Below, in pieces: positions 6,943-46,989 of a stretch of 47,126 bases of DNA (its first letter is position 1; each line of letters begins with the position of its first letter). The stretch is from NCBI GenBank assembly GCA_944321975.1, contig CALUNJ010000007.1:1-47126 (forward strand), in the 5' to 3' direction. The notes under the pieces are model-generated. The model was not told where the DNA came from, did not search any database, and saw only the letters and a list, made by a program, of their open reading frames with translations. The DNA is from an uncultured Paraprevotella sp. (GTDB lineage: Bacteria; Bacteroidota; Bacteroidia; Bacteroidales; Bacteroidaceae). The translations under genes and the position numbers were made by a program.

Positions 6943-9123
6943 ATGGATGCAACACTGAATCTGACGGAACCTCTGAAGCGGTATTTTGGCTTTGACACCT
7001 TCAAGGGTGAGCAGGAGGCCATCATCCGCAACGTCCTGGCGGGCAAGGACACGTTCGTGCTGATGCCTACGGGAGGAGGCAAATCATTGTGCTATCAGTT
7101 GCCGGCCCTCCTGATGGAGGGGACGGCCATCGTCATTTCTCCCCTGATCGCCCTGATGAAAAACCAGGTGGATGCCATCAGGGCGATATGTGGCGACGAC
7201 GGTGTTGCGCATTTTATCAATTCCTCGTTGACGAAAGGAGCCGTGGAAACGGTCAAGAAAGACATTCTCGGGGGAAAGACCAAACTGCTCTATGTGGCTC
7301 CCGAATCGTTGACGAAAGAAGAGCATGTGGACTTCCTCCGCCAGGTGAAGATATCGTTCTATGCCGTGGACGAGGCCCACTGCATTTCGGAATGGGGGCA
7401 TGACTTCCGGCCGGAGTACCGGCGGATACGGCCGATCATCAACGAGATCGGGCAGGCTCCGGTGATTGCCTTGACGGCGACGGCCACCGACAAGGTGCGC
7501 GGGGACATCAAGAAAAACCTGGGCATGACGGACGTGAGCGAATTCAAGAGTTCTTTCAACCGGCCCAACTTGTACTACGAGGTGCGCAACAAGACGCACA
7601 ACGTGGACCGCGACATCATCAAGTTCATCCGCCAGCATCCGGGCAAGAGCGGCATCATCTATTGCCTGAGCCGTAAAAAGGTGGAAGAACTGGCCGAGAT
7701 CCTGCGGGCCAACAATATTAACGCGCGGGCTTACCATGCCGGCATGGATTCCCAGACACGTTCCCAGACGCAGGACGATTTCATCATGGAGCGCATCGAT
7801 GTCATCGTGGCAACGATCGCTTTCGGCATGGGAATCGACAAGCCGGACGTGCGTTTCGTGATACACTATGACATCCCGAAAAGCCTGGAAGGATATTATC
7901 AGGAAACGGGGCGGGCCGGCCGCGACGGCGGAGAAGGGCTTTGCATCACCTTCTACACCTATAAAGACCTGCAGAAACTGGAGAAATTCATGGAAGGGAA
8001 GCCCGTGGCGGAACAAGACATCGGGCGGCAGCTCCTGTCCGAGACTGCGGCCTATGCCGAGACTTCCGTGTGCCGGCGCAAGGTGTTGCTGCATTATTTC
8101 GGGGAGGATTATCCGGCGGACAATTGCGGGAACTGCGACAATTGCCTCCATCCGAAGGCCAAGGTCGAAGCCCGGAACGAGCTGGGCCTGTTGCTGGAGG
8201 TGGTGCAGGCGGTCAAGGAACGTTTCAAGGCCGACTACGTGATCGACGTGCTGACCGGACGGGAGACCGACGAGGTGGTGGCGCATAAGCACAACACGCT
8301 GGACTGTTTCGGATGCGGCATCGAGCGCGAGGCGCGGTTCTGGAATGCGGTCATCCGGCAGGCGCTGATTGCGGGGTTCCTGGAAAAGGAAATAGAGAAC
8401 TACGGCATCCTGAAACTGACGGGGAAGGGGCGCAAGTTCAGGAAGAACCCGGAATCTTTCATGATGTCGGAGGACAATGAATTCGACGAAGAGGAAGAAC
8501 CGGCACCCGGTCCGGGAAACGGCGTGGGGGCTATCGATCCGGCGCTTTTTGCCGCGCTCAAGGATCTGCGCAAAAAGATGTCCCAAAAGCTGGACGTGCC
8601 TCCTTATGTCATTTTCCAAGACCCTTCGTTGGAAGCAATGGCCACGGTTTATCCCATCAGTATTGAAGAACTACAGAACATTCCGGGGGTTGGGGCCGGG
8701 AAAGCGAAACGCTACGGAAAGGAATTTTGCGATATGATACGTCAGCATTGTGAAGAAAACGAGATAGAACGGCCGGAAGATTTGAGGGTGCGCACGGTGC
8801 CCAACAAGTCGAAGCTGAAAGTGAGCATCATACAAAGCATCGACCGCAAGGTGGCGCTTGACGACATTGCTTCTTCCAAAGGAATTGACTTCAGCGAGCT
8901 GCTGGACGAGATCGAGGCGATAGTCTATTCGGGCACGAAGCTGAACATAGACTATTTCCTGGACGAGGCGATGGACGAGGACCACGTGGAGGATATCTAT
9001 GAGTATTTCCGCACCTCGGAGACCGACGACCTGGCCGAAGCCTTGGAGGAACTGGGCGGAGACTACACGGAGGAGGAGGTGCGCCTGGTGCGCATCAAGT
9101 TCATCTCGGAGATGGCGAATTAG
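6943..9123 (+). CDS. recQ: ATP-dependent DNA helicase RecQ (long form)
   Basis: RecQ is a 3'-5' helicase that unwinds recombination intermediates and stalled forks. The 726-residue protein has Walker A GGGKS (44-48), DEAH (143-146) followed by the RecQ aromatic-rich loop CISEWGHDFRPEY, helicase C-terminal motifs ending in QETGRAGRDG, and a zinc site (C-x16-CGNCDNC). A winged-helix RQC region follows, then an HRDC-like domain near 520-600 with a helix-hairpin-like PGVGAGKAKRYG. About 100 acidic residues extend past the HRDC domain, longer than E. coli RecQ (about 610). It ends in a convergent terminator shared with purA. Confidence 0.95.
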   Translation: MDATLNLTEPLKRYFGFDTFKGEQEAIIRNVLAGKDTFVLMPTGGGKSLCYQLPALLMEGTAIVISPLIALMKNQVDAIRAICGDDGVAHFINSSLTKGAVETVKKDILGGKTKLLYVAPESLTKEEHVDFLRQVKISFYAVDEAHCISEWGHDFRPEYRRIRPIINEIGQAPVIALTATATDKVRGDIKKNLGMTDVSEFKSSFNRPNLYYEVRNKTHNVDRDIIKFIRQHPGKSGIIYCLSRKKVEELAEILRANNINARAYHAGMDSQTRSQTQDDFIMERIDVIVATIAFGMGIDKPDVRFVIHYDIPKSLEGYYQETGRAGRDGGEGLCITFYTYKDLQKLEKFMEGKPVAEQDIGRQLLSETAAYAETSVCRRKVLLHYFGEDYPADNCGNCDNCLHPKAKVEARNELGLLLEVVQAVKERFKADYVIDVLTGRETDEVVAHKHNTLDCFGCGIEREARFWNAVIRQALIAGFLEKEIENYGILKLTGKGRKFRKNPESFMMSEDNEFDEEEEPAPGPGNGVGAIDPALFAALKDLRKKMSQKLDVPPYVIFQDPSLEAMATVYPISIEELQNIPGVGAGKAKRYGKEFCDMIRQHCEENEIERPEDLRVRTVPNKSKLKVSIIQSIDRKVALDDIASSKGIDFSELLDEIEAIVYSGTKLNIDYFLDEAMDEDHVEDIYEYFRTSETDDLAEALEELGGDYTEEEVRLVRIKFISEMAN

Positions 9124-9180
9124 CGTTTCCTCCCGGCCGCGGGGCGAGTCCGCAGCCGTCGTGAGGGCGGTTCCCGTTGA

Positions 9181-9230
9181 CGCGCGCGACCCTTTCCGGA
9201 AGGCGGAAGCCTGCCACGGAAAGGGTCGCG
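9181..9230. terminator. Hairpin between convergent recQ and purA
   Basis: CGCGCGACCCTTTCCG (9181-9196) pairs perfectly with 9215-9230. The 18-base loop contains a second small stem (AGGC/GCCT). This perfect 16-base-pair stem lies exactly between two converging genes, so it probably ends both transcripts, although neither side has a strong T tract. Confidence 0.65.
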
Positions 9231-9260
9231 CGTTTGTGGATTCTCCCTTGCGGGGACTCT

Positions 9261-10535
9261 TTATTTGTTCCTGATGATGGTTTGCGCACGGTCCGGCCCC
9301 ACGGAAAGAATCGTGATGGGAGTGTCCAGCTCTTTTTCGAGGAAGCTGATGTAGTCTTTGAACGCTTGCGGGAATTGCGCTTCGTCGGTCATGTGCGACA
9401 AGTCTTCTTTCCATCCCGGAAGTTCCTTGTACACAGGTTCGCAGCCTTCGGTGTCAAAAGGCATGTCTGCCGTCAGCACGCCGTCCTTTTTGTAGGCAAT
9501 GCATGCCTTGACCGTGTCGAAGCCGTCGAGCACGTCGCTTTTCATCATGATGAGCTGCGTCACGCCATTGATCATGATGGCATATTTCAGTGCCACGAGG
9601 TCCACCCATCCGCAACGGCGGTTGCGTCCTGTCACCGCGCCGTATTCATGCCCGATTTCGCGGATCTTGTCGCCGGTCTCGTCGAACAGTTCCACCGGGA
9701 ACGGGCCGGATCCCACGCGGGTGCTGTAAGCCTTGAAGATGCCGAACACCTCTCCGACGCATCCCGGCCCGACTCCCAGTCCGGTGCATACGCCGCCGCT
9801 CGTCGTGCTCGAGGAGCTGACGAAGGGGTAGGTGCCGTGGTCGATGTCCAGCATGGTGCCTTGTGCGCCTTCGGCCAGGATGTGTTTGCCCTCCTTCAGG
9901 TAACGGTTGATTTCGATTTCCGTGTCAGTCAGTTGGAAGCCGCGCATGTATTCCACGCCTTCGAGCCATGCTTTTTCTTCTTCGGCGATGTCGTAGTCCG
10001 TGTAGTGCAGGTCTCTCAGGATCTGTTCGTGGCGGGCTTTGAGGGCGGCATATTTTGTTTCAAACGAGTCGAGGATGTCGCCCACGCGGAGTCCGGTGCG
10101 GGCCGCCTTGTCGCTGTAAGTGGGGCCGATGCCCTTGCCCGTGGTGCCCACTTTGGCCTTGCCTTTTGCGGCCTCGTAGGCGCGGTCCAGCACCCGGTGG
10201 GTCGGCAGGATCAGGTGTGCCCTTTTGCTGATGTGCAACCGCCCTTTCAGGTCATAGCCTGCGGCTTCCAGTTCCTTGACCTCGGCCATGAACAAGTCCG
10301 GGGCCAGCACGCATCCGTTTCCGATGATGTTCACCTTTCCGGGGGCGAAAATGCCCGACGGGATGGAGCGCAACACGAACTTTTTGCCGTCGAAGATGAT
10401 GGTGTGTCCGGCGTTCGGGCCGCCGGCAAAGCGAGCCACCACGTCATATTTCGGGGTAAATACATCTACCACTTTCCCTTTGCCTTCGTCGCCAAAGACG
10501 ATTCCCAAAAGGGCGTCAACTTTTCCTTTTTCCAT
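9261..10535 (-). CDS. purA: Adenylosuccinate synthetase
   Basis: PurA joins IMP and aspartate using GTP to form adenylosuccinate, the first committed step from IMP to AMP. The 424-residue product is full length. It has the N-terminal P-loop-like GDEGKGK, the GPNAGHT motif, GTTGKGIGP with the IMP-contacting loop, and EGAQGTMLDIDHGTYPFV. It is transcribed alone on the minus strand from a TAACTTTG -7 box. I see no fur-type regulator beside it. Confidence 0.96.
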   Translation of the reverse strand: MEKGKVDALLGIVFGDEGKGKVVDVFTPKYDVVARFAGGPNAGHTIIFDGKKFVLRSIPSGIFAPGKVNIIGNGCVLAPDLFMAEVKELEAAGYDLKGRLHISKRAHLILPTHRVLDRAYEAAKGKAKVGTTGKGIGPTYSDKAARTGLRVGDILDSFETKYAALKARHEQILRDLHYTDYDIAEEEKAWLEGVEYMRGFQLTDTEIEINRYLKEGKHILAEGAQGTMLDIDHGTYPFVSSSSTTSGGVCTGLGVGPGCVGEVFGIFKAYSTRVGSGPFPVELFDETGDKIREIGHEYGAVTGRNRRCGWVDLVALKYAIMINGVTQLIMMKSDVLDGFDTVKACIAYKKDGVLTADMPFDTEGCEPVYKELPGWKEDLSHMTDEAQFPQAFKDYISFLEKELDTPITILSVGPDRAQTIIRNK

Positions 10536-40048: not shown

Positions 40049-40942
40049 ATGGCAGAAAAGCTCAAATTTGCCCTTTTCGGCAATGTGTATCAGGCCAAGA
40101 AATCGGCTTCGGTGAAGCAACTTATTTCCTTGCTCACCGCCCGTGGGGCCAAGTTGTATGTCGAATCCGCCTTCCACGATTATCTGGTCCGCACGTTGCG
40201 CCTCAGTTTCCGGCCCGACGGGCTGATTACCGGGCGTGATTTCTTTGCGGACATTGCCGTGAGCATGGGAGGGGACGGCACGTTCCTGGCCGCGGCCAGC
40301 CAGGTGGGCGACAAGCGCATTCCCATCTTGGGAATCAACATGGGGCGGCTCGGCTTTTTGGCCGATGTCTCGCCCGAGGAGATAGAGGCATGCATTGATG
40401 ACATTTACAACCATACCTATAAAATAGACGAGCGAAGTGTCATCGAGGTGCAGTATGAAGGGCCGAGGCTCTCGGGCTATCCTTTTGCGCTCAACGAAGT
40501 GGCCGTGCTCAAGCGCGACAATTCCTCGATGATTTCCATTCGCGTGGAGGTCGACGGCGAGTACCTGGCTACCTATCAGGCCGACGGGCTGATCATCAAT
40601 ACGCCCACCGGGTCCACGGGCTACGCCCTGAGCGTGGGGGGGCCGATCATCGTGCCCCAGTCTGGCACGTTTTGCATCACGCCTGTGGCGTCCCACAGTC
40701 TCAATGCGCGTCCTATCACGTTGCAGGACCGGGCGCGGATTACGTTGTCCGTGGAGTCGCGCAACCACAATTTCCTTGTGGCCATTGATGGGCGCAGCGA
40801 AGCCTGCACGGAAGCCACGCGCCTTCATTTGCGCCGGGCTCCCTATAATATAAAGGTGTTGCAGCGCAAGAACCATTCGTTTTACTCCACCCTGCGTGAG
40901 AAGCTCATGTGGGGCGCCGATCCAAGGGGGCAGTCATGCTGA
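40049..40942 (+). CDS. nadK: NAD kinase
   Basis: NadK phosphorylates NAD to NADP. The 297-residue product has the diagnostic GGDGT at 74-78, the NE motif in FALNEVAVLKR, and the glycine-rich TPTGSTGYALSVGGPI. It has a complete C-terminal beta domain. Its stop lies inside the start region of the next gene (ATG at 40936), so the pair is translationally coupled. Confidence 0.96.
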   Translation: MAEKLKFALFGNVYQAKKSASVKQLISLLTARGAKLYVESAFHDYLVRTLRLSFRPDGLITGRDFFADIAVSMGGDGTFLAAASQVGDKRIPILGINMGRLGFLADVSPEEIEACIDDIYNHTYKIDERSVIEVQYEGPRLSGYPFALNEVAVLKRDNSSMISIRVEVDGEYLATYQADGLIINTPTGSTGYALSVGGPIIVPQSGTFCITPVASHSLNARPITLQDRARITLSVESRNHNFLVAIDGRSEACTEATRLHLRRAPYNIKVLQRKNHSFYSTLREKLMWGADPRGQSC

Positions 40943-42600
40943 ATGTTTTTTTCAACAACCGTTCGAAGTATTCCACCTTGTGCCTGCTCCGGTGGTTATG
41001 GGGCATTTTGCGCCGCCATCGCGTGCAAGTGTGTCTCAACACCTTGTTGGGCTGCACTTCTGTGGGGCTTGATTTCGCTTTCATTGCCGCCACGAAGTGG
41101 GCCATAGACATTGCGACCCACCGGGCTTCCGCCCCGTTGGCGACGGCCGCCGCCGTCCTTGCGGGCATCCTTCTTTTGCAGCTGGGCCTCGGTTTCGCTT
41201 CGCGTTGGGTCAAGGCCATCCTGGGGGTCAAGGCGCAAAACCACATGCAGCTTTATTATTTTGACCGTTTGCTCCACAGCGAGTGGTCGGCCAGGCATGG
41301 GTGCCACAGCGGCGACCTGCTCAACCGGTTGGAACTCGACGTGAGGGACGTGGTGAACGCCACGACAGAGACCGCGCCGTCTATCGTGTCCGTAGGGGTC
41401 CGCCTCGCGGGAGCTTTTGTGTTTCTCTATTCCATGGATGCCCTTTTGGCTTGTTTTTCCGTGGCCATCATTCCTTGTTTCATCGTGTTGAGCAAGCTCT
41501 ACATGAAGCGGATGCGCAGGCTGACGCGGGACGTGCGCGACACGGACAGCCGCATTCAAAGCATCTTGCAGGAAACCATACAGCATCAGATGGTGGTGCA
41601 GACGTTGGAGCAACAGCCTGCCATGGTCGGGAGGCTCGACCGGGTGCAGCGCCATTTGCGCCAGCAGGTGAGGACGCGCACAAAATTTTCGTCGGTTTCT
41701 GCCACTTTCCTCAGCGCGGGCTTCATGGGGTGCTATCTCGTGGCGTTTCTTTGGGGAGCCGCCCGGCTTCACGAGGGGACGATTACCTATGGCATGATGC
41801 TTGCCTTCATCCAGCTGGTGGGGCAGATCCAGGGGCCTTTCCGCGACCTGACGCGTTTCATCCCTATTTTTGTCAATGCCTTTACGGCCGGGGAACGTTT
41901 GATGCAGGTGGAGGAGATTCCCTTGGAACAGCCGGGGGGCGGCATGCCGGTGGGGCCGGTGCCAGGCGTGAGGTTCAGCGATGTGACCTACGCATACTCG
42001 CCCGGAGGCCGCCTTGTCCTCAAGCACTTCAGCTATGACTTCCCGCCCGGAAGCCACACGGCCATTGTCGGTGAGACCGGGGCGGGGAAGACCACGCTCA
42101 TCCGGCTGATGCTTTCGCTCATCCATCCTGCGGAAGGGAAAGTGTCGCTCTACGACGGTGCTTGCGAGGTGCCTTGCGACGCCGGTACGCGTTCCCATTT
42201 CACTTATGTGCCGCAAGGCAACACGCTTTTCAGCGGAACCATCCGCGACAACCTGCGTCTCGGCAATCCGCAAGCCTCGGAGGAGGAGATGCGGGATGCG
42301 CTCGCGGATGCTTGTGCCGGTTTCGTGTTCAACCTGCCGGAGGGGTTGGACACCATGTGCGGGGAACAAGGGGCGGGGCTGAGCGAAGGACAGGCGCAAC
42401 GCATTGCCATTGCGCGTGCTTTGTTGCGCCCCGGAGGCATACTGTTGCTCGACGAGGCCACTTCCTCGTTGGATGCCGGCACCGAAAAAAGACTGTGGCA
42501 GAACATCGGCCGGCGCAGCAGGGGGAAAACCCTGATTTTTGTGACCCACCGCACAGGAATCATCGGGCCGGACGCTCGCATTTTGACGTTGAGAAAATAA
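40936..42600 (+). CDS. ABC exporter, fused membrane and ATPase domains
   Basis: The 554-residue half-transporter has six transmembrane helices in the first 310 residues, then an ATPase domain with Walker A GETGAGKTT, Q-loop YVPQGNTLFSG, signature LSEGQAQR, Walker B GGILLLDEATSSLD and H-loop VTHR. The signature has Glu where LSGGQ has Gly. The start is ATG 40936, overlapping the nadK stop. An upstream GTG (40909) is less likely. The substrate is unknown: similar proteins export lipids, peptides or drugs. A B12 riboswitch follows but lies downstream, so it does not control this gene. Confidence 0.9.
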   Translation: MLNVFFNNRSKYSTLCLLRWLWGILRRHRVQVCLNTLLGCTSVGLDFAFIAATKWAIDIATHRASAPLATAAAVLAGILLLQLGLGFASRWVKAILGVKAQNHMQLYYFDRLLHSEWSARHGCHSGDLLNRLELDVRDVVNATTETAPSIVSVGVRLAGAFVFLYSMDALLACFSVAIIPCFIVLSKLYMKRMRRLTRDVRDTDSRIQSILQETIQHQMVVQTLEQQPAMVGRLDRVQRHLRQQVRTRTKFSSVSATFLSAGFMGCYLVAFLWGAARLHEGTITYGMMLAFIQLVGQIQGPFRDLTRFIPIFVNAFTAGERLMQVEEIPLEQPGGGMPVGPVPGVRFSDVTYAYSPGGRLVLKHFSYDFPPGSHTAIVGETGAGKTTLIRLMLSLIHPAEGKVSLYDGACEVPCDAGTRSHFTYVPQGNTLFSGTIRDNLRLGNPQASEEEMRDALADACAGFVFNLPEGLDTMCGEQGAGLSEGQAQRIAIARALLRPGGILLLDEATSSLDAGTEKRLWQNIGRRSRGKTLIFVTHRTGIIGPDARILTLRK

Positions 42601-42613
42601 ATCGGCCCGGATG

Positions 42614-42645
42614 TTTGCCGGAGCCGTGGGAAAATGTTAACTTTG
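42614..42645 (+). promoter_or_regulatory. Promoter of the cobalamin riboswitch transcript
   Basis: TTTG (42614-42617) and TAACTTTG (42638-42645), exactly 20 bases apart, are among the best promoter matches in the window. Transcription should start within a few bases of the riboswitch. Confidence 0.75.
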
Positions 42646-42648
42646 CCC

Positions 42649-42850
42649 TCGTGGCAGGTGTCCTCCTTCGCCGTCCGGTGTCGGGGGATGAAATGGGAAC
42701 CGGGTGCGACTCCCGGACAGTCCCGCTGCTGTGAGTTCCAGAAACGCATCAAAAAGGAAGAAACCCGTGCCACTGCTTTGCGGCATAGGCCGTAAGCGGG
42801 AAGGCGTTTTTTTGATGCGGGAACGAGTCAGAAAACCAGCCTGCCGCCAT
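42649..42850 (+). ncRNA. Cobalamin (B12) riboswitch
   Basis: The conserved core is intact: ATGGGAACCGGGTGCGACTCC, CCGGACAGTCCCGCTGCTGTG, GCCACTG (about 42768) with GGGAAGGC, and the B12 box-like GTCAGAAAACCAGCCTGCC near 42828-42846. The closing stem pairs GGCAGG (near 42653) with CCTGCC. The distal stem GCATCAAAAA / TTTTTTTGATGC is also complete. Such RNAs bind cobalamins and usually repress B12 uptake or synthesis genes. Here a strong promoter precedes it but no recognisable target gene follows on the plus strand. Confidence 0.92.
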
Positions 42851-43277
42851 TTGACCAAAGGAATCCTGCTTCGAGGGTTAGGCGGGGATTCCGGCGACAC
42901 CGTCCCGTGGCATATGCCTTGCTCCTCAGACCCTGCCAAAGGCCGAAGTGATTCGCCCGATTTGTCTGGACCGTGCTATCTGCTATCAATCGACGGCACA
43001 GACACTCCCAACGGACAAGGTGTAAACGCGCAGGACAAAACATCCGCTTTCTGGAATGCCGCCCGGTTTTCTGCCCGTGGCGGCATTTTGGTGTCTTTTG
43101 TTTTTTGCTGTGGGACGGCGGGATTTCATTTTGACATTCCTCGTGTGGCTTCCCCGGTTTCTGCGAAAGAGGGAGGACGAGTCCTTTGGGCGGATGCCCG
43201 TTTGGCCTATGTTTGCGGTAGCATGTGCCGTGCTTTCTAAAACCTTTGTAATCATGAGTTTGCGCGCGGTTTTGAGA
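42851..43277. other. Region after the riboswitch, no recognised gene
   Basis: A hairpin GGAATCC (42860-42866) with GGATTCC (42886-42892) follows the riboswitch. An 87-residue plus-strand ORF at 43056-43319 begins MPPGFLPVAAFWCLLFFAV and is partly hydrophobic, but it runs into the repeat and has no known domain. A longer ORF from 42704 is riboswitch sequence read as protein. I see no btuB, cob or cbi remnant by eye. Confidence 0.5.
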
Positions 43278-43345
43278 CGGCTGGTTTTTTCTCAAGCGAT
43301 TCACATTTTTTTCTCTTGAGATTCACATTTTTTTCTCAAGCGAAA
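43278..43345 (+). repeat. Dispersed palindromic repeat, copy D
   Basis: TTTTTTCTCAAGCGATTCACATTTTTTTCTCTTGA is followed by a second GATTCACATTTTTTTCTC with a 22-base period (units at 43298 and 43320), then AAGCG. This copy is a tandem direct repeat of the core, unlike the palindromic forms B and C. It lies at the end of the apparently geneless DNA behind the riboswitch. Confidence 0.8.
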
Positions 43346-43527
43346 GGTTGGTGGTTCTACTGTGGAGTTGCTGGAAGGATGTTTCCTTGGGGGAGCGGGA
43401 GGATGAAGGATGTGGAATCCTTTTGGGCGCGAGAAAGAAAAGGAACGTTTTTTGGGGCAGGGTATGGCGGATTCCTTTTGTGCGGGGGCGTTCCCTTGTG
43501 GCATTTTCCGAAGGAAAGCCATGCATG

Positions 43528-43566
43528 AAAAATCCCCCGTCCGCGGAAAAAACGGACGGGGGGATT
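43528..43566 (-). terminator. hppA terminator
   Basis: On the minus strand AATCCCCCCGTCCG pairs with CGGACGGGGGATT (one bulged base) around a T-rich loop, then TTTTTC. It lies 33 bases after the hppA stop. Confidence 0.8.
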
Positions 43567-43598
43567 GTGGAGAGGTGAGAGGCGCAGGCCGTGGGTGG

Positions 43599-45803
43599 TT
43601 AGAACAAGCTCCACGACACCGTGAGCCCGGCCATGACAATGGCCACCATCGACATCAGCTTGACGAGGATGTTCAGGCTTGGCCCGGAAGTGTCTTTAAA
43701 CGGGTCGCCCACGGTGTCGCCCACGACGGCGGCCTTGTGCACTTCGCCGCCTTTTCCGCCGAAATGGCCTTCCTCCACATATTTTTTGGCATTGTCCCAT
43801 GCGCCTCCCGAATTAGCCATGAAGATGGCCAACACGAAACCGGCCGACAAGCCGCCCACCAGCAGCCCGATGACTCCCGGCACGCCGAATATCAGTCCGG
43901 TCAGGACGGGAGCCACAATGGCCAGTAGCGAGGGGAACACCATTTCGCGTTGTGCGCCTTTCGTGGAGATCTGCACGCAGCGGGCGTAATCCGGTTCGGC
44001 CTCGCCGCTCAGGATGCCTTTGATTTCGCGGAACTGCCGCCGCACTTCTTCCACCATGTGGCTCGCCGCCCGCCCCACGGCATTCATGGTCAGGCCGCAG
44101 AAAAGGAACGCCATCATGCTGCCGATGAACATGCCTGAGAGCACTTTGGGGTTCATCAGGGTCACGTCGTAATAAGTCATGAAGTCGGTGAAGGATGCAT
44201 CGTGGATGGGCAGTGTGGACCCGTCGGGCATGGTGAGCATGGTGTTGCCCAGGCGGGTCAGGCCGATGCGGATTTCCTCGATATAGGATGCCAGGAGCGA
44301 AAGTCCCGTGAGCGCGGCCGAGCCGATGGCAAAGCCTTTTCCTGTGGCGGCAGTGGTGTTGCCCAGCGAATCCAGGGCATCCGTTCGTTTGCGCACCGTT
44401 TCGCCCAGTCCGCTCATTTCAGCGTTTCCGCCCGCATTGTCGGCAATGGGGCCGTAGGCGTCGGTGGCCAGCGTGATGCCCAGCGTGGAAAGCATGCCCA
44501 CGGCGGCGATGCCTATGCCGTAGAGTCCCATGCTTACGTTGGTGAGGTCGAATCCGGATGCCAGCCAATAGGAGAGGATGATGCCGGCCACCACGGCGAT
44601 GACCGGAATGGTGGTGGACACCATCCCGAGCCCGATGCCGGAGATGATGACCGTGGCCGGGCCCGTCTTGCCACTTTCTGCCAGTCGCTTGGTCGGACGG
44701 TAAGACTGCGAGGTGTAGTATTCAGTGGATTGTCCGATGATGATGCCTACCAGCAGTCCGATGACCACGGCGAAGGAGATGTTCAGCCAATTGTCCAGTT
44801 CCAAGGCCCAAAGCACAAGGAACGTGGCGCCCACAATGAGGGCGGAACTAAGGTTTGTGCCCAAAGAGAGCGAACGGAGCAGGTCTTTCATGCCGGCGTC
44901 TTCTTTGGTGCGGACTGCGAAAATGCCGATAATGGAGAGCAGGATGCCTACGGCTGCGATCAGCATGGGGGCGATGACGGCCTTGAACTGCATGTCCACG
45001 TCGCCACTGCCCATGAACGCGGCAGCCCCAAGCGCGGATGTGGCCAGGATGGAGCCGCAGTAGGACTCGTAGAGGTCGGCTCCCATGCCGGCCACGTCGC
45101 CCACGTTGTCGCCCACGTTGTCGGCGATGGTGGCCGGGTTGCGTGGGTCGTCTTCCGGAATGCCGGCTTCAACTTTGCCCACGAGGTCGGCCCCCACGTC
45201 GGCGGCTTTGGTGTAAATCCCGCCACCCACACGGGCGAACAATGCTTGCGTGCTGGCTCCCATGCCGAAAGTCAGCATGGTGGTGGTGATCATGCAGAGT
45301 TTGGCGGCCGGTGTGTTCACATCGGTCGGGATCACGCAGTCTAACAGGATATACCAAAACGAAATGTCGAAAAGCCCGAGGCCTACTACGACCAGCCCCA
45401 TCACCGCCCCGCTCCGGAAGGCGATGCGCAGCCCTTTGTTGAGGGAATTGCGGGCGGCGTTGGCCGTGCGTGCGGAGGCATAGGTGGCCGTCTTCATGCC
45501 CAGGAAACCGGACAGGCCGGAGAAGAAGCCCCCCGTGAGAAATGCCACCGGCACCCATGCGTTCTGCAGGTTGAAGCCATAGGCCATGACGGCGAACAAC
45601 GCGCACAGTACGATGAATACTATGCCCACCACTTTATATTGTTGTTTCAGGTAGGACATGGCACCTTGGCGCACATGCAAGGCGATTTTTTGCATGACGG
45701 GCGTGCCTTCGTCAGCTCCCATCATCTGACGGTAGAAGTACCATGCCAGCAGCAAGGCCAGCAACGAGGATGCAGGAATCATCCAAAAGAGAATTTGTTC
45801 CAT
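43599..45803 (-). CDS. hppA: Membrane-bound ion-translocating pyrophosphatase
   Basis: HppA couples pyrophosphate hydrolysis to H+ or Na+ pumping across the inner membrane. The 734-residue protein has about 16 hydrophobic segments and the substrate site motifs [53 protein letters not shown], and the C-terminal [28 protein letters not shown] carries alanine where K+-independent enzymes have lysine, so it should be K+-dependent, and such enzymes in Bacteroides usually pump Na+. It is monocistronic with its own promoter and terminator. Confidence 0.95.
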
Positions 45804-46077: not shown

Positions 46078-46989
46078 ATGTGTTCGGAAGGTATTATAGA
46101 CCGGTATGTTAATTTCTACACAGACTTCGCATTCAAGAAACTCTTCGGGACGGAAATCAACAAGGAGCTACTTGTGAGTTTCCTCAATGCTTTGTTGCAG
46201 GGACGTGAGGAAATAAGGGAAATAACTTATTTGAATACGGAGCATTTGGGCACACAGGAATATGACCGGCGTGCAGTGTTCGACGTATATTGTACCAATG
46301 AAAAGGGTGAATATTTCTTGGTGGAAATGCAAAAGGGCGAGCAGCAGTTTTTCAAAGACCGCAGCCTTTATTATTCTGCTTTTGCCATCCGCGAGCAGGC
46401 TCCGCGTGGAGAATGGGACTATGGCCTGAAGGGAATTTACACGATTGGCATCTTGAATTTTAAGATTTTTGAACATGATGCGGACTATCGCCATGAAGTA
46501 AAGCTGATGGATGTGGCCACAAAGCAAGTTTTTTATGATAAGCTGACCTTTATTTATTTGGAAATGCCCAAGTTTACCAAGACGGAGAAAGATTTGGAGA
46601 CGCTTTCTGACAAATGGTTGTATGCCATCAAGAACCTGGCAGCCTTGATGGAACGCCCGGCGACCTTGCAGGAAAAAGTCTTTGCCCATTTGTTTGAGGC
46701 CGCAGAAATAGCCAAGTTCGACAAAATGGAACGTCTTGAATATGAAGAAAGCCTGAAAAACTACCGCGATTGGTATAGCGTCATGAAAACGGCTCAGGAG
46801 AAAGGACACCAAAAAGGATTAGAGGAAGGGCGTGAAGAAGGTCGGAAGGAAGGACGTGAAGAAGGCCGGAAGGAAGGCGCAAATGAAAAAGCGTTGTATA
46901 TAGCTCGGCAGATGAAACAGAGTGGAATCGCAACTGAAATGATTGTGCGGTACACTGGGATTTCTGAAGAGCAGGTTAATGGTTTATAA
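46078..46989 (+). CDS. Rpn/PD-(D/E)XK nuclease-family protein (putative transposase type)
   Basis: The 303-residue protein begins with the family hallmark YVNFYTDFAFKKLFGTEINKELLVSFLNALL. The nuclease core follows with a D-x(n)-E-x-Q pattern: AVFDVYCTNEKGEYFLVEMQKGEQQFFKDRSLYY. Rpn proteins are DNA endonucleases linked to recombination, and the PF12784 branch is often labelled transposase without evidence of mobility. The C terminus is a charged EGREEGRK tandem (about 250-268) and a short helical end. No terminal inverted repeats were found around it. It has a strong promoter and terminator. Confidence 0.88.
   Translation: MCSEGIIDRYVNFYTDFAFKKLFGTEINKELLVSFLNALLQGREEIREITYLNTEHLGTQEYDRRAVFDVYCTNEKGEYFLVEMQKGEQQFFKDRSLYYSAFAIREQAPRGEWDYGLKGIYTIGILNFKIFEHDADYRHEVKLMDVATKQVFYDKLTFIYLEMPKFTKTEKDLETLSDKWLYAIKNLAALMERPATLQEKVFAHLFEAAEIAKFDKMERLEYEESLKNYRDWYSVMKTAQEKGHQKGLEEGREEGRKEGREEGRKEGANEKALYIARQMKQSGIATEMIVRYTGISEEQVNGL
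46825..46878 (+). repeat. 24-base tandem repeat in the Rpn-family gene
   Basis: Two full units (46825-46848 and 46849-46872) and a partial third (46873-46878) encode EGREEGRK. The two copies differ at two third-codon positions, and length changes would stay in frame. Confidence 0.85.

Follow-up and report, generated by a model that had tools for sequence, protein, structure and literature searches.

EutX of Enterococcus, like Rli55 of Listeria, places a B12 riboswitch ahead of an RNA that acts on a B12-dependent pathway. Metal-sparing small RNAs of the RyhB type, themselves under a protein repressor, ensure that cofactor-hungry enzymes are no longer made when the cofactor is scarce; the Paraprevotella RNA described here would follow the same sparing logic, with the sensor located within the same RNA. 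The SAM riboswitch fragments SreA and SreB act in trans on another mRNA. They and the Paraprevotella RNA are both riboswitch-bearing RNAs that pair with another mRNA (in our case, as predicted), the pairing element being the terminated aptamer itself in SreA/SreB and a dedicated tail here. In this group of bacteria, propionate formation depends on B12 at the step catalysed by methylmalonyl-CoA mutase.

According to the available part of one review, AspocR of Listeria monocytogenes is a B12-riboswitch-controlled non-coding RNA antisense to pocR, and Listeria Rli55 is a B12-riboswitch-controlled RNA that sequesters EutV (PMC8079631). A survey of antisense-acting riboswitches names, in its accessible text, two earlier cases (PMC9943018). 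In Xylanibacter ruminicola, B12 raises MutA and MutB at both the RNA and the protein level by a mechanism given as unknown, with no riboswitch near the genes; in the sections available, the authors consider the MutAB change minor and the control of propionate formation mainly post-translational (PMC11575231). Some cobalamin riboswitches of Gram-negative taxa act on transcription, as stated in the accessible part of PMC12121620.

The RNA reported here is encoded in the window, that is, the whole 47,126-nt contig of an uncultured Paraprevotella sp. that was analysed. Like AspocR, which represses a B12-dependent pathway without B12 and reportedly inhibits in trans, it carries a 5′ B12 riboswitch on a non-coding RNA; unlike AspocR, a long RNA that is antisense to its target pocR and acts on a transcription factor, it has a short loop that matches the mRNA of an enzyme encoded by an unlinked gene (PMC8079631, available part). 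A cis-antisense arrangement of the AspocR type is absent, mutA being on contig C26 and the RNA on C7. Rli55 is similar in that a B12 riboswitch precedes an RNA of about 450 nt with an action, here predicted, on a B12-dependent pathway, but Rli55 sequesters the protein EutV via ANTAR elements, whereas here base pairing with an mRNA is predicted (PMC8079631, available part). B12-riboswitch-controlled regulatory RNAs are already known from Listeria; trans-encoding and the match to an enzyme mRNA set the present RNAs apart. No earlier report of a trans-encoded anti-mutA RNA with a B12 riboswitch was found in the open-licence literature, preprints excluded and some sources available in part, and the word cobalamin is absent from the main text, as available, of the B. 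thetaiotaomicron transcriptome map (PMC7366714). In our opinion, the RNA is quite probably a B12-riboswitch-controlled, trans-acting small RNA, the tail of which pairs with mutA mRNA and represses mutA when B12 is scarce.

The riboswitch and its conserved tail

A first-pass annotation of this DNA had pointed to a promoter leading into a B12 riboswitch with no recognisable plus-strand gene behind it, and each of these observations held. The two promoter elements, TTTG and TAACTTTG, are present with a spacing of 20 nt; from the consensus of such elements, we take them to form a Bacteroidetes-type promoter. The riboswitch is a genuine member of RF00174 by covariance search: the match spans the full model (1-189) and, at 106.5 bits (E=8e-26), exceeds the gathering score of 31.5. 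No second RF00174 match was found in its genome, an assembly 86% complete to which the window contributes one entire contig; at least one match occurs in 17 of the 18 genomes of the genus. No convincing plus-strand gene was found between the riboswitch and hppA, which occupies 43599-45803 on the minus strand (Pfam H_PPase, E=7e-268). RF00174 and tRNA (two matches) aside, no Rfam family reached its gathering score in the loci scanned. The features are as follows.

40936-42600, plus strand: ABC exporter gene, the usual upstream neighbour, outside the RNA (Pfam ABC_membrane and ABC_tran; synteny)
42614-42617, plus strand: −33 element TTTG of the presumed promoter (sequence reading; aligned in relatives)
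42638-42645, plus strand: −7 element TAACTTTG, of the form TAnnTTTG (sequence reading; alignment of eight genomes)
42639-42858, plus strand: cobalamin riboswitch aptamer (RF00174)
42860-42892, plus strand: hairpin GGAATCC...TTCGAGGGTTA...GGATTCC, its loop conserved in eight genomes, which we take to be P13, the usual kissing partner of L5 in known class I switches
42941-42957, plus strand: M1, a small GNRA-loop hairpin, CGAA-GTGA-TTCG (alignment and folds)
42963-43004, plus strand: predicted hairpin B, with M2 in its loop; outer stem 42963-42968/42999-43004, inner stem 42971-42974/42993-42996 (folds)
42976-42991, plus strand: M2, the putative antisense loop CTATCTGC-TATCAATC, 16 nt (alignment; complementarity to mutA)
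43055-43089, plus strand: predicted intrinsic terminator AATGCCGCC...GGCGGCATTTT (sequence reading; stem kept in relatives)

Promoter, aptamer, a non-coding tail of about 200 nt and terminator recur in seven more Paraprevotella genomes, in six of which the same ABC exporter gene lies directly upstream, and DNA similarity among these relatives extends beyond the aptamer. The TA and CTTTG of the −7 element are invariant across the eight aligned genomes. After the aptamer, the alignment gives a constant order: the P13-like hairpin, a stretch of variable length, M1 (GGCCGAAGYGATTCGCC), M2 (CTATCTGCTATCAATC) and the terminator. The exact motif pair occurs in seven named public contigs, all from Paraprevotella and including P. 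clara YIT 11840 and P. xylaniphila YIT 11841. The aptamer family and the P13-like hairpin are those of other Bacteroidetes cobalamin riboswitches (the btuB, nrd and cob leaders), from which the present RNA differs in having no cis gene. In G013 (L051, contig 6, about 7545-9300), the RNA is located away from the exporter gene; its neighbour, divergently oriented, is an operon that has a riboswitch in front and by eye looks btuB-like.

The M1 loop is GTGA in the window and GCGA in the other seven genomes. M2 is identical in six of the eight, G013 differing at the last base and G005 having one inserted T. In full-length folds, M2 is predicted to be largely unpaired (mean probability 0.69-0.88) in seven genomes and half paired in G005 (0.47). 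The arms of hairpin B pair with a mean of −16.1 kcal/mol with their own partner versus −10.8 kcal/mol in cross-species combinations, some of which exceed the own ones; RNAalifold on the MAFFT alignment missed this hairpin because the arms misalign. An alternative P13-M1 pairing was considered as a switch and dropped, being possible in Paraprevotella and broken in G026.

Pairing of the terminator stem is preserved with different bases across relatives. A simple terminator scan lists a partial form of the hairpin at 43055-43089, and finds no plus-strand terminator-like site between 42650 and 43050; the predicted RNA would run from about 42651 to 43092, or about 440 nt. As read from the sequence alone, the RNA has its own promoter and intrinsic terminator, as looked for in a trans-encoded small RNA, and a riboswitch followed by conserved non-coding RNA without a cis gene, which is the layout of AspocR and Rli55. 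On these predicted features and their conservation, 42614-43092 is a stand-alone non-coding RNA gene, not a remnant.

The layout in the relatives bears on the readings offered by the first-pass annotation, among which a riboswitch controlling a non-coding RNA gains support from the gene-less RNA with its conserved tail in seven relatives. Its other suggestion, a decaying riboswitch that recently lost a btuB-type target, is hardly credible: no gene follows the riboswitch and the assembly is incomplete, but the gene-less layout, the tail motifs and the terminator stem, kept through base changes, persist in all seven, and the proposed comparison of exporter-to-hppA synteny argues against deletion, the exporter remaining upstream in six. 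It is also very improbable that the riboswitch precedes a small protein. There are open frames, one of them 178 aa long from 42704, but the M1-M2 spacings in the eight genomes (35, 37, 34, 37, 36, 32, 32 and 32 nt) are out of frame, so the conserved motifs cannot share a reading frame, and the 87-residue hydrophobic ORF at 43056, once proposed as the product, starts within the terminator hairpin, outside the conserved RNA. Antisense action into hppA, likewise proposed, is unlikely, since the predicted transcript should end about 500 nt before hppA and no hppA-like gene follows the RNA among the predicted genes of the five relatives with contigs continuing for 1.5-10 kb (those of the other two, G007 and G001, stop within 0.5-0.7 kb).

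Two further elements were noted on this contig. A gene for a PD-(D/E)XK nuclease family transposase lies beside hppA at 46078-46989 (PF12784, E=1e-75). The repeat copy D of the first-pass annotation, at 43281-43343 and past the terminator of the RNA, is a dispersed palindrome-like repeat (TTTTTTCTCAAGCGA...) with 26 scored matches in its own genome, the query itself included, and a few in G007 and G013.

Predicted pairing with mutA

The conserved tail and its match to mutA were not among the observations of the first-pass annotation. Methylmalonyl-CoA mutase was tested first because it is B12-dependent and because B12 raises MutA and MutB in X. ruminicola (PMC11575231, available part); it was the first candidate gene family, and mutA is the only candidate gene tried. 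The enzyme is present in 16 of the 18 genomes of the genus. mutA, which encodes the small subunit and lies upstream of mutB, has a leader that starts with GATTGATA right after a TAnnTTTG box, with ATG-GCAGATAG about 26 nt further on. The two halves of M2 are the exact and correctly ordered complement of these two 8-mers, the first located at the predicted mRNA 5′ end and the second in codons 2-4. The RNA thus has the conserved, mostly unpaired (by folding) segment complementary to a translation start that is looked for in a trans-encoded small RNA.

The bipartite match emerged only on reading the mutA leaders. A single uninterrupted target for M2 had been sought as a 15-mer with at most two mismatches, which was only modestly more frequent than its reversed control; the recurrent matches, to exbB-like genes (on the wrong strand) and to the end of the trigger factor gene in two genomes, were dropped. 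A duplex-energy test on whole tails was uninformative, yielding long meaningless duplexes, and local alignment with shuffles was used instead.

The exact bipartite site occurs at mutA in ten of the 18 genomes of the genus: in all eight that carry the RNA and in two of the ten others, a set that includes two genomes without methylmalonyl-CoA mutase. The mutA leader of G002 was not recovered. One further bipartite match in the genus, in G012, is antisense within a TolC-like gene. Outside the genus the pattern is found in 17 of 283 other genomes of the family, in none of which does ATG directly precede GCAGATAG. With 3 nt added at either end, the M2 of the window reaches a score of 16.7 with its own mutA. 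The control set consisted of 564 start regions in the window and in 12 related loci, at most four start codons being used per ORF; the best of these scores 10.9. In all eight genomes, complementarity to the own leader exceeds that to dinucleotide-shuffled leaders (p 0.001-0.014).

Certain observations qualify this picture. No RNA was found in G011 and G015, although mutA keeps the exact bipartite site there (L122, L110); the site alone therefore does not need the RNA. The exporter locus of G011 stops at a contig edge 250 nt downstream. GCAGATAG is partly constrained by the encoded protein (Ala-Asp-Ser). Within Paraprevotella the RNA-mutA pair is nearly invariant and no compensatory change was seen; the one predicted in G005 was not found, the extra T being present in the loop and absent from mutA. 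We regard the predicted RNA-mutA pairing as well supported.

Tails and hairpins in other genera

To 25 genomes from 22 other genera belong 89 riboswitch matches and 22 genomes with mutA. Most of these riboswitches precede btuB-, nrd- or cob-like genes; gene names here and below are visual readings of the translations, apart from those for which a Pfam match is given. Gene-less status was assigned by a mechanical ORF test, and 11 riboswitches were treated as gene-less. Five lack any ORF of 80 aa (L182, L193, L197, L244, L288); six were chosen by eye, four with short or distant ORFs (L243, L248, L277, L292) and two, L185 and L186, for a shared hairpin, although a gene comes after it. L187 and L249 had too little sequence for the ORF rule.

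The tails of gene-less riboswitches differ in sequence, and several match the start of their own mutA. That of G022 has a perfect 16-nt match, and that of G043 matches mutA codons 2-6 and part of the leader (p=0.003-0.004). The hairpin AATAAACTCTGCCAAGTTTATT, common to five genomes, is complementary to AATAAACT-A-TGGCAGA across the mutA start codon. For the 11 gene-less riboswitches, the match to the own mutA has p values of 0.002, 0.003, 0.003, 0.010, 0.016, 0.036, 0.046, 0.048, 0.144, 0.224 and 0.592, the last three (L186, L244 and L288) being not significant. Among the 73 other riboswitch leaders (five riboswitches without a mutA leader or enough sequence were left out), eight fall below 0.05 and two below 0.01, both reaching p=0.001, with a median of 0.51. 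The gene-less riboswitches match better (Mann-Whitney p=5e-5), in a set that is not fully independent, since more than one comes from the same genus; smaller sets give 2e-4 (n=9) and 0.015 (the five picked by rule only). The own leader is not always the top scorer among 37 leaders, because start regions resemble each other across genera.

The 16-nt core of the Bacteroides-type hairpin was found exactly in 32 of the 301 genomes of the family, and its target ATAAACTATGGCAGA in 43. Both occur in 31 genomes, the hairpin without the target in one (G025, where mutA allows a G-U pair) and the target without the hairpin in 12 of the 269 hairpin-free genomes; Fisher's test gives 3e-31, which overstates the association, the genomes being related. 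Of 30 target loci examined, 26 are mutA by protein start (20 by motif script and six more by eye), including L345, where the reading frame ends after 23 codons. Within genus g14, the target is present in 4/4 genomes with the hairpin and in 0/11 of the hairpin-free leaders read. An M1-like GNRA tip is located in the terminator region after 26 of the 32 hairpins. In 27 of the 32 genomes the hairpin comes directly after a cobalamin riboswitch, and in four (G048, G184, G210 and G197) the riboswitch is about 1.1 kb upstream; near the G035 hairpin, none was found within 1.5 kb upstream. One-mismatch variants of the hairpin, where sequence was at hand, showed no riboswitch core upstream by pattern search, and cmscan on L359 and L361 gave no match.

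In the 32 genomes, co-variation with mutA is seen at the bases by which the pairing is prolonged 5′ of AAACT. Of six positions, a mean of 5.03 pair in own combinations; shuffling lowers this to 4.59 (p=0.0001), and shuffling confined to genera lowers it to 4.81 (p=0.008). Thus, ATTG in the RNA accompanies CAAT in mutA (G132, G145, G171), ATC accompanies GAT (G052, G073, G025), and ATTT accompanies AAAT in others. In G132, G145 and G171 the 5′ arm of the RNA itself also reads CAAT, with one bulge, so that hairpin and target change together. G107 and G035 are counter-examples, in which the pairing run stops after two positions.

These comparisons bear on the idea that the RNA has other main targets, or a protein partner, with the mutA match secondary or accidental. 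Small RNAs often have several targets, and mutA was the sole candidate gene tried; nevertheless, we consider this quite unlikely, given that tails of different sequence match mutA in several genera, that co-occurrence and co-variation are seen, and that none of the 564 other start regions reaches the M2-mutA score. For the predicted pairing with mutA, comparison of genomes shows, on the level of sequence, that the RNA is conserved, that it is complementary to the mutA site and co-occurs with it, and that the two co-vary in related genera.

Proposed action and transcripts with a gene

In the proposed mechanism, the 5′ half of the RNA is the cobalamin riboswitch and the 3′ half would present the 16-nt loop for pairing in trans with mutA mRNA. 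The two loop halves would clamp the predicted mRNA 5′ end (GATTGATA) to codons 2-4 (GCAGATAG). About 26 nt, the start codon included, would be looped out in between, and the pairing would block translation of mutA. At low B12 the RNA would be made or active, and B12 binding would shut it off; the enzyme would then not be made without its cofactor. Repression of mutA, and its direction, are what we infer from this arrangement; it suggests that in these gut bacteria production of methylmalonyl-CoA mutase ceases when B12 is missing.

An RNA that pairs with mutA but activates it, or that is made in the presence of B12 (an ON switch), with B12 raising MutA directly, is in our opinion unlikely. The predicted pairing lies over the start region, where repression usually acts, the majority of B12 riboswitches are switched off by their ligand, and in the four genomes with the distant riboswitch it precedes a weak MetE-type ORF (by Pfam, in one of the four), a gene expected to be wanted at low B12. 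The published rise of MutAB with B12 would fit either sign if the riboswitch were inverted (PMC11575231, available part). To that rise, the predicted repressor RNAs offer a direct and testable answer in cultured gut commensals (PMC11575231, available part). They also suggest that gene-less B12 riboswitches deserve examination as small RNA genes rather than dismissal as remnants.

In these four genomes (L304, L313, L315 and L316), an ORF of 324-330 aa lies between riboswitch and hairpin, and the hairpin and terminator come after it. The G210 protein, the only one of the four tested, matches the Pfam N-terminal domain of cobalamin-independent methionine synthase with E=5.5e-4, under the curated cut-off. 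If this assignment is right, the anti-mutA hairpin lies within the 3′ UTR of a B12-repressed MetE-like mRNA. It is likely that Paraprevotella, g3, g9, g10, g14 and probably further genera of the family carry a riboswitch fused to a tail co-evolved with their own mutA start, the same hairpin being located, in some g3 genomes, in the 3′ UTR of a MetE-like mRNA that starts with a riboswitch. In the latter, if this is true, one B12-repressed transcript would supply the B12-free enzyme and silence the B12-dependent one.

Two other arrangements were observed. In L305, L311, L314 and L317, the anti-mutA hairpin is flanked by two same-strand cobalamin riboswitches, the starts of which are separated by about 1.1 kb. 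In L204 (G031), counted as gene-bearing despite its good match, a strong match to the own mutA start is followed by a gene that by eye resembles a membrane transporter; the tail looks like a real antisense tail, and one transcript is possibly doing both jobs.
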